From contig NC_135218.1 in assembly GCF_052324685.1 (NCBI RefSeq), forward strand, positions 13,741,858 to 13,805,857: a stretch of DNA of 64,000 bases, read 5' to 3'. The notes below the pieces were generated by a model, which did not search any database, was not told the origin of the DNA, and saw only the letters and a list, made by a program, of their open reading frames with translations. A program made the position numbers and the translations under genes. Positions 6,636-59,719 of the stretch are shown here, piece after piece. Position 1 is the stretch's first letter. Every line of letters starts with the position of its first letter. This stretch comes from Brachyhypopomus gauderio. Taxonomy: Eukaryota > Chordata > Actinopteri > Gymnotiformes > Hypopomidae.

Positions 6636-9600
6636 GTCGTTGTGAGAGGGAGGAGGTGACCCATGTTGTAATAGCACTGAATACTGGGACACATTTAGAC
6701 ATTGCAAATCCATCCAATCTCCTCCACTACTGCTCTATAATGCTGAGAGTAGGAAACACATCAGCGTGAAAGAGGGGGTGGTGAGATGTGTCGGGGGGTG
6801 GGGGGGGGGGGGGGGGGGGGGGTGAGGGTGTGTCGGGGGGTGGGGGGCGTGGGGGGGGGGTGAGGTGTGTCGGGGGGTGGGGGGCGTGGGGGGGTGGTGG
6901 TGAGGTGTGTCGGGGGGTGGGGGGTGAGGTGTGTCGGGGGGTGGGGGGCGTGGGGGGAGTGAGGTGTGTCGGGGGTGGGGGGCGTGGGGGGGGTGGTGGT
7001 GAGGTGTGTCGGGGGGTAGGGGGGTGAGGTGTGTCGGGGGGTGGGGGGCGTGGGGGGGGTGAGGTGTGTCGGGGGGTGGGGGGCGTGGGGGGGGGGGTGA
7101 GGTGTGTCGGGGGGTGGGGGGGTGAGGTGTGTCGGGGGGTGGGGGGCGTGGGGGGGTGGTGGTGAGGTGTGTCGGGGGGTGGGGGGGTGAGGTGTGTCGG
7201 GGGGTGGGGGGCATGGGGGGGGGGTGAGGTGTGTCGGGGGTGGGGGGCGTGGGGGGGGGTGAGGTGTGTCGGGGGTGGGGGGCGTGGGGGGGGGTGAGGT
7301 GTGTCGGGGGTGGGGGGCGTGGGGGGGGGGGGGTGAGGTGTGTCGGGGGTGGGGGGCGTGGGGGGGTGGTGGTGAGGTGTGTCGGGGGGTGGGGGGCGTG
7401 GGGGGGGGGGGGGGGGGGGGTGAGGTGTGTCGGGGGTGGGGGGCGTGGGGGGGGTGGTGGTGAGGTGTGTCGGGGGGTGGGGGGCGTGGGGGGGGTGGTG
7501 GTGAGGTGTGTCGGGGGGTGGGGGGCGTGGGGGGGGTCCTGAGGGGACCAGTTCTTAAGCAGAGAGTGACTGTTGCCAGGGAAGCTCCAACTACCCATCG
7601 TACAAGACACCACAAAACCTGAGAGAGCTCTATCTTTAAGTCAGAGATTAAACTTATCCTGCAGGCCTGAAATTAGTGCTGGCTTGTCAAAGCAAGTTTT
7701 GTTCTTTCGAACGGCCCGGGGGGAGTGAGGGGTCACGATAAACCGCCTTCCCTCAGCTACTCAGCAAGGAATGTAGCATGTGCTCCTTAATTCTGCATAC
7801 AGCGAGGCCTGGTGAGAAACGAGTGGGATGATCGTGCACTATACGTGTAGGTGGAAGTGCCCAGCACGCCGAGTTCAGGACTCCAAGAGCCAGACTCCCC
7901 GTCCGCCGCTACACAACGGGATTATTCTACAGCTCCGCCCACCTGGCTGCCTGCCCCAATCCCAGGTCTCGATGATAGAATGGTGGATAGATGACGAAGA
8001 CACCTCCTCCTCTTCTTTCTTCTCTTTATCGCTGGACTCGTCTTTCTTCTGCACACCAGCACAATCTGCAGAGTCCTCTGAGAGTGGATTTAAAAAAAGT
8101 TATTTTAGTTTACAAATAACTATAAAACCTGAAAACAAGAAGACTACATCAACGTGCTTTACATCATACGCAAGAACGTGATATGCCCATGTTGAGATGA
8201 TGCCGTTTGCTTGTTTACCTGGATAGGCAGATTCCTCTCTGTTGAAGACAATTTCCTCATCCTTCACCATTTCATTCCACATCTCACTCAGTCCCTCGGC
8301 GGAAAACGCACGCTGCAACAGCAGAAACGTCCAGATATCATTCACAAACCCAGATTTCAAAATTCTATGGTAAATCTTCATCCAAGAACAAAACTCCCAT
8401 AGAACCTTCTATTTAGGACCATAAAGAATACTCCAAAACCATTCGATACCACGACTGCAGTATGTCACCCGGTAGGATGCCAAGAAGTCAACATCAGAAA
8501 GACAAAAAGAGCTGCAGTCCTCATAGTGTACGACTAGTCCCCACCACAAAGACAAAGTAAAAAATATCCTGAAATCTGACAGTGTTTCCAAAACATAACT
8601 AAAAGGTGTATTTGAGTGCAATATTTGCAAAACAAATCTGTGGCGTTATAACACAAAAACCTCCACAGACCTGCATTTCCCCATATAAATAATAAACAAG
8701 GGTTTAGTTAGACACGGGTTTAGTTTTGTTGTTTCCCATGGGAAGTCATAAGGCCTTAATCGGTCACCTCAGGTCACTGTTCAGAGTTGCAGAACCGTAC
8801 CGCCAGGCTTGGGGGCATTTATGGCAGCGTTGGCCAGTTTGAATCACACTGTTCCCGTCTCACTGAAGATGCAGCCTGCAATTGTCATTTTGTCTTGTTA
8901 AATGTTTAATTGAACAGACTTGTTAATGTCTTGAGACAGATGCAGGAAATCACTACACAACTTCCACTAGCAAAATGAACAAATACTGACTGCATAAGTA
9001 TGATTAATCAAGCTGTGAAACAGCAATGTACCTTTAACAGAGCAGATCACTGACAGCTGACCTTTTGTCAAGCCCCTAGATTCCACATATTAACACTCAA
9101 GCAGCATTACAGACAATAAGCACTTAAGGATGAAAAGGAAAACCAGCATTCTTGGGTTGCACTGTGGCTGGGAGGAGGAGTAATCTTAGAGTTCAAAGTG
9201 CATAGACTGTGGCCCACTGAACTATCTTGAAGTTCAGAAGTGCTTCTCAAACCAGTCCTTGGAACCCACCAGAAGGTCTGCATTTCTACTTCAACACGGC
9301 AACACACGGGGCAACACGGTGGCTTGGTGGTTAGCACGTTTGCCTCTCAGCACTGGGGTCTTGGGTTCAAGTCTCTATCTGAGTGGAGTTTCCATGTTCT
9401 CCCCGTGTCTGCGTGGGTTTCCTCCGGGCTCTCCGGTTTCCTCCCACAGTCCAAAGACATTTTCAATAAAAAGCAGTTGTCTGAGTGTGTGTGCATGAAT
9501 GTGTGTGTGCTTGTATGCCCAGTGGTGGATGGTTCTCCGTCACTGGGGTCTGTTCTCTCTCTACCCCCTTCCTGCACCCCAATCAGTCCTCCAGGGAGGC

Positions 9601-13470: not shown

Positions 13471-14496
13471 CTTTAGACCATAACATTAATTAAGGTCGTG
13501 CTGCCCACTATGTCTAGTTGTGATGTAAACTGCACCTATTCCACCTGATTGGGGTCACCTTCTTCACGTGTACAACGCCACCTGCTGGGAAAGTATGAAC
13601 TAGCTCTTCGTTCGTTGACATTTCTTTGGAAAACTCGTTTTATGGGATTTGTGCATTGCGCCATTATTCTCAGCAGCACTTGTGTGTGATTGTAAAAGCG
13701 TACTCTAAAGTACGGACCTAGCTGTTTCCCCATACATATCTAGACCAACTTCCGGGTTCTCCAACTGTTGGTCATCCCGGTCATCCCATCACGCCTATGG
13801 GGCGGTCATCGCTTGTTTTTTATGGATGGCGTTCCATGTTTCCTGTTTTATGTTGAGATTTTAAAATAATTTGTTTTTAGATTCGACTCCAAATGAAAAT
13901 ACGGAACTACAATAAAAGACGAGCTTATGGAGGACTCGTCTTTGTCCGTTGGTGTTTTAATAGCGATAGTGTCTAGTTTCATCAATGGCTCCACGTTTGT
14001 GCTCCAGAAAAAGGGTATACTCCGTGCTCGCAGATCAGGTAGCAAACTAGCTCTTATATTGTAGTTGGTCACACTATTGTTTTACTTGATTTGTACACGT
14101 TGCCGAGTTGTACATGGGGGCTGAAGGGTTTTATAAAACTGTTAACCATGGTGAATGGTTGAATGTGCATGTCTGCCTCACCGTCGTGCACTATTGTACC
14201 GGTTTACAGGTAGGACGTACCTGTCTGACTCTGTGTGGTGGTGTGGGACACTTGCAAGTGAGTGAATCTGCTTCATTACGGTTGTGGTTCTCTATGACTG
14301 CATTAAAACATTTCCATTCTCAACAGTGATAGTGGGCCAGATTGGGAACTTCCTGGCCCACAATGCCGCATCAGCAATACTGGTAACTCCTCTTGGAGCT
14401 TTGGGTGTTCTGTTTGGGTGAGTTACAGTTTATCCTTAGAAAATTGATATTGAAATAAATTCTTACTTTAATTTTTTTATTAGAATTATAAATATA

Positions 14497-14562: not shown

Positions 14563-15381
14563 GTGTGTGTGCTATATTTTTAATTTTTTTTTATTATGAC
14601 TACTTACTATATTATAGCTGCACCTATTACTGTATATTTTACTGTACAATATTTCTTCACTGATGATATGTAATTTGCAACCCAGAGCTCTCCTGGCCTC
14701 CTGGCTACTACAGGAACATCTAAATATCCTGGGAAAACTTGGATCTGTGTTGTGTTGCTGTGGATCAGTTGTGCTTATAATGCATTCACCAAAGACTGAG
14801 AGTGTGGCATCAAGAACTGAATTACAGGAGCGACTATTTGATCCAAGTATGAACATACACCACATCACTTGCGTTGTAATGATTTTACAGTCATTTTTAC
14901 AGATGAGATTTGGCTTATAAGCACCTACTTATGATCTGATTCAAAACTGCCCAAATAGTGCAATGGATGTGCCAGGACTTGTTCAGAAGCAGGGTAAACA
15001 TGTTTAATATAATTTAATAGATTTAGCCTGAAGTGATATTGTAATTGTGGCTCTGTTTCTGACTGGTGCACACCTGATCCTGCCGGTATTGTTTCAGTGT
15101 TCCTGAGCTACGTCGCCCTGGTGGTCCTGCTGCTGGCTGTACTGATTGTGTGGCTCTCTCCAGCGTATGGAAAGTCCAACATCATGGTGTACGTTAGCAT
15201 CTGCTCCCTCCTGGGGAGTTTCACAGTTCCCAGTTGCAAAGGCCTGGGCCTGACTGCAAAGGAAGCCTTCAGTGAAGACTTCAGCCCAGATAACAGAGCC
15301 CTCCAACTCTTCCTGTGCTTACTGGGCATTCTAATCAGCAGTATTCTCATCCAGTTTGTTTTCATCAACAAAGCCTTAGAG

Positions 15382-15754
15382 CAGGGGTACTCAACTGGCG
15401 GACCGCGGTCCGGATCCGGACCCGAACGCAGTCCTGTCCGGACCCAATCTCATTCCTGATTAACTGGATACGGACCAAAACAAAACCGTAGCATTTATTT
15501 CAGGGCTATTGAAAAAAATACTCCGTCACGAGTGTTACGTTCGCACCGCTCACAACAACTTACGTTCGCCGCCAACATCACCCCCCCCGCGCTCAACAAT
15601 TTACGTTCGCCACATCCCCCCCCCCACCCCCCCCCCCCCCCCCCCCCCACCCCCGCTCAACAACTTACGTTCGCCACCCCCCGCCCGCACCGGACCTCGG
15701 GTCACAGGTATCTGCCAAAATTGGACCGCGGACAAATTTAGTTGAGTACGCCTG
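15382..15754 (+). mobile_element. Non-autonomous hAT element (MITE) inside NIPA1 exon 5
   Basis: The 373-bp element begins CAGGGGTACTCAAC and ends with the inverted copy GTTGAGTACGCCTG (one mismatch). It is flanked by a perfect 8-bp target duplication CCTTAGAG at 15374-15381 and 15755-15762, the hallmark of hAT transposition. The arms also share CCGCGGTCC just inside the ends. The interior holds several ACGTTCGCC-containing short repeats and a long C-rich run (15615-15655), and no transposase. Deleting the element plus one duplication restores the conserved NKALE-SFSSNMFEAIYY reading. Confidence 0.93.
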
Positions 15755-15987
15755 CCTTAGAGAGTTTTAGCTCCAACATGTTTGAGGCCATTTATTATGT
15801 AGTTTTCACATCCTCTGTCATTGTTGCCTCTGCCATTCTTTTTAGAGAGTGGGAAACATTAAGCTTTTTTGACTGTTTAGGTATTCTGTGTGGATTCATC
15901 ACAGTTTCAGTGGGTGTTACCTTGTTGCGTATATCACAAGGAGCTGTACTGACGTGGAATCATGCTAAAGCTAAAAAGAGTAATTAA

Positions 15988-17230
15988 CTCATTATTTATT
16001 TCTGTTATTACATTTTGTACAAACAGCATATAGTATTAACAATATCAAGAACAAGATCTTGGATAAACTCCTAATATGTTGTATTTCTTGATTGCTTAAT
16101 TCTATTTCAAACCATTTATCTGTGAAGGTTCAATTGGACTGGCTTTATTAAGGATACTTATACATTATAATGATAAATAGATTTTTTATTGTTCATTCTG
16201 TTTTAATAAATTAATTGAGAATATTGGGTCAGTAGAAAAGTTCCTAGGCTGTGTGTAAAACAGGTTCTGTTCACTCACTTTGCACTGTTCAGATTCATAA
16301 TTATTCAGATGAGAAATTATGGCATACGTAATGCAACCATAACTAACTAGTTGTAACCTGTTGACCAAAGTACTATACAATTCATCAATTTCATAGAAGC
16401 TACAACATACAATATAGATCCAGTTGAACTAGTCATACTAGTACCCACTATACATAACTAAAATACTGTGTAAAAAAAAAAAACCCCACAAAAGTATAAA
16501 GTATTTTAAGTCTTGTTAAGCTTTTTTGTGATAAACTATTCAATAGCCTCAGCACAGGGGCTGCAAAGGCATGATCACCATTGAGCTTCAGCTGAGATTG
16601 TGGAACAGCCAAAATGATCTGACCTGAAGACCTCAGTAACCTGGGTCCCAAAGGTGGAGCAGATTTGCAGTACAGGATAAAGTGGTTCTCTTGGTTCTCT
16701 TCCATTAAGAGAGCTAAATATAAAATAACTTTGCATCCTGTAATGGACAGGAAGCCAGTTATAAATATAGTTATACAATTGTGAGGTCATGTAGTTTGTA
16801 GAAGCCTATCAGGACAGTCAAGAATCAAGACACTCATTGGGTGCATCAGGCATTTTTGTTGAAAAATGTGAACTTGACACATTTCTGAAGTAAATACAAT
16901 AAATGAAGTAAAAACCATGAAAGCTGCAAGCTTTAGACCACATAAATTAAAAGGGCACCATGGACCACACAAACAACAAATATGTGGCACTACACATAAT
17001 TAAAACGAAAAATGCAAGCTATTTTATACAAAAGCACAAAGCTCTTTATTACTCACAAACCACTATACATTTGAACAAGTGTTCTTTTAATCTCATTAAC
17101 AGTGGACATCTTATTAGTTAGTTATTCTACTAGTTATTGAACGCAAAAGACAATTCGCATGTAGCGTTAATGTGTCCAAAGCAACGAAAGACAATGTTTA
17201 CAAAATGCGTAATATATCGGACCTATCAGG
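15988..17230. other. NIPA1-NIPA2 intergenic region
   Basis: Contains the NIPA1 3' UTR with AATAAA at 16205-16210 and the LINE remnant listed separately. No gene otherwise seen. Confidence 0.5.
16490..16790 (-). mobile_element. LINE (L2/Rex-like) reverse-transcriptase C-terminal fossil
   Basis: On the minus strand two frames carry pieces of the conserved LINE ORF2 C-terminus: NWLPVHYRMQ (around 16740) in one frame and LRSSGQIILAVPQSQLK with GDHAFAAPVLRLLNSL (around 16560-16650) in another. A frameshift separates them, so it is a dead fragment. Clade is inferred from the motif pattern only. Confidence 0.75.
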
Positions 17231-22037: not shown

Positions 22038-47990
<25,953 letters not shown>

Positions 47991-58284: not shown

Positions 58285-58402
58285 ACCCCCCCTCCCCCCC
58301 CCCCTCCTCCAAATGCTGCTGAAGGTGTCGTAGATGTTCATACAGGGGCGCCAGATCTCGTTGAACACACATCGTCGGGACGAGGCGTCGTTCTCTGGAG
58401 AA
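57111..58402. other. TUBGCP5-CHST7 head-to-head spacer
   Basis: Holds the TUBGCP5 promoter (57111-57650, moderately GC, no motif I would assert), an AT-rich middle, and C-rich/CA tracts at 58248-58310 just before CHST7. No other gene is supported. Confidence 0.5.
57712..57744 (+). other. Exon-like segment: ATG in good context followed by a strong donor
   Basis: The plus strand reads ACCATGAGCTTCG..., open for ten codons up to TCAG followed by GTGAGC. It could be a noncoding/uORF-bearing first exon of the CHST7 transcript (acceptor candidates precede 58334 and 58346), or chance. Joining to the second acceptor does not keep the CHST7 frame. Confidence 0.2.
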
Positions 58403-59719
58403 ATGAAGAGGAAGCTCCATAAGAAGTACATCATCCTAATAATCGGATACTCCGTAGTCTTACTCCTCATCCCGTACGTGCTGGACTACCGCAGCAGATC
58501 GGCTCACGTCAAACACGGACTGCAACAGCAGAGATGTCCCGATCTGGAGAACACGATGGCACTGTGGAATAACGGAGACAGACCGGGCGGCTCCAACGAC
58601 ACCGCGGAGGAGATCGGCAACAGGAGTCGGTCCAGATCGCACATATACGTGCACGCCACATGGAGGACGGGCTCGTCGTTTCTGGGCGAGTTGTTCAACC
58701 AGCACCCGGACGTGTTCTACCTGTACGAGCCCATGTGGACCATGTGGCAGGCTCTCTACCCGGGGGACGCCGGCAGCCTCCAGGGAGCCGTCCGTGACAT
58801 GATGAACTCACTTTTCCGCTGTGATTTCTCGGTTTTAAAACTCTACGCTGGTTCGGCCAATATAAGCACGTCTTTTATATTCGGCTGGAAGACCAATAAG
58901 GTGATTTGTTCCGAACCTCTTTGCGGTGCGTATAAAAAGCAGGACGTGGGGCTGGTACAGGGGGACGTGTGTGGCAAGTGTAAGGCGAGAGATATTAAAG
59001 AGCTGGAGAGGGAGTGTAAGAAGTATCCGGTGGTGGTGATCAAGGACGTGAGGGTTCTGGACCTCGGGGTTCTGGTGCCGTTGATGCGAGACCCCACCAT
59101 CAATCTGCAGATCGTACAGTTATTCCGAGATCCACGGGCGGTTCACAACTCGAGGTTGAAATCCAAGCTGGCACTGGTCAAGGAGAGCATACAGGTGATC
59201 AGGAGCAAGAAGCAGAGTGATAAATACAAGCGCCTTCTGGTGCCCAACAGCAGGGTGAACCGAGCCGAGAACTACGTGGCCAGCGCCATGGAGCTGATCT
59301 GCGACAACTGGCTAAACGACATGTTGCTGGTCATGAACGCTCCTCCTTGGGTCAAGCGGAATTACATGCGGATACGGTACGAAGATCTGGTTTTGCGTCC
59401 CGTGGAGGAGTTACAGAGGCTGTATCGTTTCTCAAACCTCACGGTATCTCCAGCTCTGCAGAAGTTTGTGCTGAACATGACCCACGGGCAGGGCTATTCT
59501 TCAGACAAACCCTTTCTCATATCTTCGAGAGACGCGAAAGAAGCCATATTTGCATGGAGAGAACGACTGAATGTTGAGCAGATCAATCAAGTTGAAGCCT
59601 ACTGTAGTGAGGTGATGCGCCAGTTGGGCTACCAGAGAAGAAATATGGATCAGACATACAGTAAGAACCTCACTACCACACCAGACTTACCTACAGATAA
59701 ATACCAACCTTTCAAATAA
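58403..59719 (+). CDS. CHST7: CHST7-like carbohydrate (GlcNAc/GalNAc 6-O) sulfotransferase
   Basis: An intronless 438-aa type II Golgi enzyme that moves sulfate from PAPS to the C6 hydroxyl of N-acetylhexosamines in glycans. Residues 9-27 (YIILIIGYSVVLLLIPYVL) form the signal anchor after a short basic tail. The 5'-phosphosulfate loop WRTGSSF is at 87-93 and the 3'-phosphate motif FRDPRAVHNSR at 241-251; IYVHATWRTGSSFLGELF and VVVIKDVRVLDLGVLVPLMR match CHST7 better than CHST2/4/5. Human CHST7 is 486 aa. I chose the ATG at 58403 because it precedes the basic-hydrophobic anchor; an in-frame ATG at 58334 would add 23 residues. The stop TAA overlaps an AATAAA at 59715. Assignment among GST paralogues rests on recalled motifs. 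Confidence 0.88.
   Translation: MKRKLHKKYIILIIGYSVVLLLIPYVLDYRSRSAHVKHGLQQQRCPDLENTMALWNNGDRPGGSNDTAEEIGNRSRSRSHIYVHATWRTGSSFLGELFNQHPDVFYLYEPMWTMWQALYPGDAGSLQGAVRDMMNSLFRCDFSVLKLYAGSANISTSFIFGWKTNKVICSEPLCGAYKKQDVGLVQGDVCGKCKARDIKELERECKKYPVVVIKDVRVLDLGVLVPLMRDPTINLQIVQLFRDPRAVHNSRLKSKLALVKESIQVIRSKKQSDKYKRLLVPNSRVNRAENYVASAMELICDNWLNDMLLVMNAPPWVKRNYMRIRYEDLVLRPVEELQRLYRFSNLTVSPALQKFVLNMTHGQGYSSDKPFLISSRDAKEAIFAWRERLNVEQINQVEAYCSEVMRQLGYQRRNMDQTYSKNLTTTPDLPTDKYQPFK

Follow-up and report, generated by a model that had tools for sequence, protein, structure and literature searches.

Results

The NIPA1 gene and its truncated reading

We analysed a window of 64,000 nucleotides from Brachyhypopomus gauderio. 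By the sequence of its product, the gene described here is NIPA1, and its last coding exon is interrupted by an insert. This insert is confirmed, and its description holds to the base. The parts of the gene are given below (P0001 is a public B. gauderio NIPA1 protein, discussed further on).

13927..14038, plus strand: NIPA1 coding exon 1, from the ATG to the donor; protein identical to P0001
14210..14257, plus strand: NIPA1 coding exon 2, 48 nt, missing from NCBI isoform X2
14327..14417, plus strand: NIPA1 coding exon 3
14686..14846, plus strand: NIPA1 coding exon 4
15098..15381, plus strand: NIPA1 last coding exon, part before the insert, ending in ...NKALE at residue 232
15457..15459, plus strand: first in-frame stop, TGA, after a 25-residue tail
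15739..15741, plus strand: second in-frame stop, TAG, within the insert
15763..15987, plus strand: NIPA1 last coding exon, part after the insert, 74 codons and the native TAA at 15985; open, beyond the reach of translation

Each of the four introns begins with a GT donor and ends with an AG acceptor, and apart from the insert no stop interrupts the frame before the native one. The first poly-A-like signal downstream of that stop is at 16205. As sequenced, NIPA1 encodes 257 amino acids, made up of 232 native residues and 25 residues encoded by the element. With the insert taken out (the empty-site reading) the product has 306 amino acids, and 74 of these are lost when the insert is present. The Pfam family PF05653 (Mg_trans_NIPA) matched the empty-site reading at residues 8-288 with E = 3.7e-80, and its match in the truncated protein covered residues 8-233 only. 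An earlier sequence-only reading of this DNA had named the gene NIPA1, had placed the stops at 15457 (TGA) and 15739 (TAG) and had predicted the loss of the last 74 residues. The Pfam match and the mostly NIPA1-named relatives agree with the name, both stops are in frame, and the loss follows from 306 residues in the empty-site reading against 232 native ones as sequenced.

The lost 74 residues include two of the eight hydrophobic stretches of the protein (239-260 and 264-291). Two long helices past the insertion point were also seen in an AlphaFold model of an Electrophorus relative, a low-confidence model (mean pLDDT 59, worst in the relevant part) that was used for the number of helices only; the alignment for this model comprised 32 of the 120 listed proteins. 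The 25-residue tail that takes the place of the lost part is hydrophilic, with a mean hydropathy of -1.49.

Within the 64-kb window, a NIPA1 probe detected a single NIPA1 and a single NIPA2. Other features of the window include a G-rich minisatellite at 6774-7536 (35-bp unit, 19.1 copies), another minisatellite at 41147-41713 (29-bp unit, 19.6 copies, 92% matches) and a single open frame of 461 codons at 58334-59719, which resembles that of a carbohydrate sulfotransferase.

Anatomy of the insert

The insert has the following parts.

15374..15381, plus strand: left target-site duplication (TSD) CCTTAGAG, native exon sequence
15382..15754, plus strand: 373-bp non-autonomous hAT-like element
15382..15396, plus strand: left terminal inverted repeat (TIR) CAGGGGTACTCAACT
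15740..15754, minus strand: right terminal inverted repeat, 14/15 against the left
15755..15762, plus strand: right target-site duplication CCTTAGAG
15546..15690, plus strand: internal repeats, the CAACTTACGTTCGCC module three times (one copy mismatched), with C-rich runs between

The duplicated word is identical at all eight positions on both flanks, and one further matching base (G at 15373 and 15754) extends it to a 9-bp repeat around the insert. The element ends, CAGGGGTACTCAACT and CAGGCGTACTCAACT, match as inverted repeats at 14 of 15 positions. The description of a 373-bp element with hAT-type ends and a perfect 8-bp duplication, as first proposed from the letters of the sequence, was reproduced, and so was the count of 381 nt for insert plus duplication, which keeps the downstream NIPA1 frame. 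Both the exact length of the element and the 381-nt count carry some uncertainty because the C run at 15616-15654 is prone to sequencing error.

We scanned the window for perfect 8-bp duplications just outside inverted ends that matched at at least 12 of 15 positions and lay 60-2000 bp apart, the simplest words being excluded. The scan returned two structures, the NIPA1 insert and 42712-43865, and none in any of 40 random windows that shared its first-order composition. The structure of the NIPA1 insert is not a product of chance.

The structure at 42712-43865 is a second complete hAT-like structure of about 1.14 kb, with a perfect TSD, CTCTCAAC, and inverted ends, TAGGGCTGAACGATT, that match at 15/15 positions. 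Its TSD has no central TA, unlike that of the NIPA1 insert. The minus-strand frames on its flanks resemble CYFIP1. Nested within it is a stretch of 209 bp (43529-43737) whose 12-bp inverted ends, CAGGGTTGCCAA, are perfect; no clear TSD is visible by eye. This nested stretch and the NIPA1 insert have a 37-bp internal piece in common (84%), and their ends are different.

Classification of the element

The NIPA1 insert shows the 8-bp TSD (CCTTAGAG on both flanks) and the short TIRs (15 bp, 14/15) of hAT transposons. According to PMC3517528, hAT inverted repeats span 5-27 bp and the Buster family has the TSD consensus nnnTAnnn. The duplicated word carries TA at positions 4-5 and so fits this pattern, a weak test because only one insertion is at hand. 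It is by its ends and by the length and pattern of its TSD, and not by a transposase, that we class it as a hAT-type element, probably one of the Buster type. At 373 bp it is short, lacks coding capacity and has TIRs, as a MITE does. The largest listed frames wholly inside it are two of 93 amino acids, read from stop to stop and proline-rich by eye, and residues 1-46 of one of them gave no candidate in the protein search.

We found the element only once within the 64-kb window. Its CAACTTACGTTCGCC module, allowing up to 3 mismatches, occurs five times in the window, where 1.05 occurrences are expected. Three of these lie inside the element itself, and the others are at 43668 (1 mismatch) and 46204 (3 mismatches). 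Around the former, a partly C-rich 37-bp piece at 43650-43686 matches the element interior at 31 of 37 positions (84%). This recurrence is the sole sign in these data of a repeated family that includes the element, and it is a weak one. An exact 23-mer of the element had no match in viral contigs or in genome contigs, and the element had none in phage and plasmid collections; these misses say little about its distribution because the collections were viral, prokaryotic, phage and plasmid rather than fish. A 17-mer did match two viral contigs, which we took as chance since BLAST of the element there returned those 17 bases and nothing longer. A literature search with the end sequence listed one paper, on cancer. 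Rfam gave no match within the window.

Comparison with other NIPA1 proteins

A collection of 5.8 billion proteins was searched for relatives; 7999 candidates were scored and 366 had E <= 0.001. The codons on either side of the insert had been said to be contiguous in other NIPA1 proteins, and residues 232 and 233 indeed align without a gap in 120 of the 120 best-scoring proteins of the 366, a set that contains P0001, a few isoforms and repeated species. The informatively named proteins among these 120 are mostly NIPA1; 12 are nameless and others are called 'hypothetical' or 'unnamed'. The second-ranked relative, from Electrophorus voltai, has 89% identity over 97% of the query. Across the same best 120 of 366, the mean identity of aligned residues to the empty-site reading was 0.73 before the insertion site and 0.66 after it. 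By this sequence comparison the lost 74 residues are conserved, somewhat less than the remainder.

One of the relatives, the Clarias magur 'NIPA-like protein 2, partial' (P0017, 483 aa), appears to join NIPA1 to a NIPA2-like stretch and is perhaps an annotation merger of neighbouring genes.

The 46 C-terminal residues of the truncated NIPA1 also served as a query, and no tail-bearing protein was found. Of 13 candidates only P0001 matched, and its alignment covered 46% of these residues, as much as the native part accounts for. This bears on the idea that the truncated NIPA1 is retained for a function, either through its new C-terminus or as a dominant regulator of NIPA1 and NIPA2. With the stop in the last exon the mRNA could be stable, and the tail is open for 25 residues. 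However, no tail-bearing protein came up among the 13 candidates, an insert-free form is present in the species and the tail is hydrophilic (mean hydropathy -1.49), so that we regard retention for function as extremely improbable.

An insert-free NIPA1 protein from the same species

The top-scoring relative was the NCBI record 'magnesium transporter NIPA1 isoform X2 [Brachyhypopomus gauderio]' (P0001, 290 aa). All 290 of its residues agree with the product predicted from this locus when the insert and the 48-nt exon 2 are both left out. Skipping of exon 2 (14210-14257) in this isoform takes out 16 residues, in frame.

We asked which single 381-nt cut would give the empty-site protein. There are ten placements and all ten have non-canonical ends (GC/CT, CC/TG, CT/GC, TT/CC, TA/CT, AG/TT, GA/TA, AG/AG, GC/GA and CA/AG); GT-AG, GC-AG or AT-AC ends were not found among them. 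One canonical intron therefore cannot yield P0001 from the allele that carries the insert, and exact splicing-out of the insert was rejected for these single cuts. The sequence-only reading had called the insertion probably young and possibly polymorphic, and had named efficient splicing that removes exactly the inserted bases as one finding that would refute its account of a disrupted NIPA1. The former is strengthened by a B. gauderio protein that one canonical intron cannot produce, and no single canonical intron achieves the latter.

A looser form of splicing rescue, in which splicing at cryptic sites takes out the stops, keeps the frame and yields a protein that is close to normal or shorter, has frame-keeping GT-AG pairs to draw on. 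The best-scoring pair uses the exon 4 donor and the acceptor at 15881 (8.7). The left end of the element supplies a donor at 15387, and the frame is kept if the next exon starts at 15846 or, going by the listed phases, at 15765. Two acceptors, 15846 (9.7) and 15881 (8.7), even beat the four real NIPA1 acceptors (2.6-7.7), all scores coming from rough matrices. The donors, on the other hand, are poor: the 23 that lie in the exon ahead of the stop reach at most 2.8, against 4.4-9.1 for the four real ones. Moreover, exact removal by a single canonical intron is impossible, and the pairs with strong acceptors also remove native coding sequence; the exon 4 donor to 15881 would delete native sequence 15098-15880. 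We consider such a rescue very unlikely.

Judged by its sequence, P0001 places an insert-free NIPA1 in the species, whether its source is a genomic allele, transcripts or, with less probability, a second copy of very recent origin. NCBI marks corrected models with the label 'low quality protein'. The name of P0001 is without this label, which is in line with an empty genomic site. Being a protein record, it could also derive from another gene copy or from transcript evidence, and not from an empty chromosome.

Two explanations other than polymorphism take up these points. The insert could be fixed and the NIPA1 seen here a dying copy, with the intact protein made from a second, duplicated NIPA1 elsewhere. 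P0001 is a protein record only, which leaves room for such a copy; however, its identity at 290/290 residues to exons 1, 3, 4 and 5 of the locus means that the duplication would have to be very recent, the remaining NIPA1 coding sequence has no other stop and no splice-site damage, and by the probe the window contains a single NIPA1 beside a single NIPA2. We think a second copy unlikely. The insert could otherwise be absent from the fish and arise in the assembly, as the public protein without it and the C run, a difficult sequence, would allow. A misjoin, however, is not expected to produce a perfect TSD outside matching TIRs in the order left by transposition, and an artefact is in our view highly improbable.

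Discussion

We consider it probable that the locus records a recent, most likely polymorphic hAT-type insertion that truncates NIPA1. A short non-autonomous hAT-type transposon, probably of the Buster type, would have entered codon 232 of NIPA1 in one B. gauderio lineage, mobilised by a transposase encoded elsewhere in the genome. The insert-free B. gauderio protein makes polymorphism the most likely reading: the window would represent the filled allele and the public protein would come from the empty one.

On the filled allele translation would halt at the TGA at 15457. A stop in the last exon is, under the exon-junction rule, not expected to trigger nonsense-mediated decay, and since this TGA lies there, the filled-allele mRNA should escape it. 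The product would be a 257-residue protein without the last two membrane segments and with a hydrophilic 25-residue tail. Such a truncated NIPA1 would most likely be inactive as a Mg2+ transporter or kept in the ER.

With its duplication intact, its place in a conserved coding exon and an insert-free sequence known from the same species, the insertion would capture gene breakage before selection or drift has settled it. If the insertion is segregating, it points to recent hAT activity in B. gauderio and offers a natural way to see whether a fish with intact NIPA2 can do without NIPA1. More speculative, and less likely than not, is the reading that B. gauderio segregates a natural, transposon-made NIPA1 truncation whose carriers are viable and which acts as a loss-of-function or dominant-negative allele. 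If true, this would give an electric fish, an animal whose motor and electromotor neurons are specialised, a natural allele of a gene linked to spastic paraplegia in humans. A caution for annotation also arises: a reference with the filled allele would give a truncated NIPA1 that may be atypical of the species.

Comparison with known systems

The allele was not reported in the titles and opening lines of abstracts that we retrieved on transposable-element insertions in NIPA1, teleost hAT or MITE coding-exon cases, the B. gauderio genome and, for 20 of 121 records, fish NIPA1 and NIPA2. For the protein, the closest structural reference is NIPA2, a member of the same family with solved structures (9z6n and 9z7s), and its sequence can be aligned over both the insertion point and the lost residues. 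These structures are of NIPA2 and not NIPA1, and the comparison was made by sequence; we found no cryo-EM paper on NIPA2 in the literature. The SPG6 alleles of human NIPA1 damage the same transporter. SPG6 alleles are dominant missense changes, whereas the B. gauderio allele is a truncation, and a review states that loss of one human NIPA1 copy does not cause SPG6 disease.

For the element, two systems come closest. The short, non-autonomous Mar elements, a hAT (Buster) MITE family of Drosophila, resemble the NIPA1 insert in having TIRs and an 8-bp nnnTAnnn TSD, as given in PMC3517528. Mar is multi-copy and has relic full-length relatives, and its host and sequence are unlike those of the NIPA1 insert. 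The second system is from fish. Its element, like the one in NIPA1, sits within a protein-coding gene: PMC8151067 describes Tol2 in the medaka tyrosinase gene as a mutant allele, Tol2-tyr. Since gene-breaking transposons of this sort are known in fish, the kind of mutation proposed here is not new. Tol2 is itself a hAT element. It differs from the NIPA1 insert in being about 4.7 kb long and in having been found through an albino phenotype, whereas the insert in NIPA1 measures 373 bp, has no transposase and is known from sequence alone.
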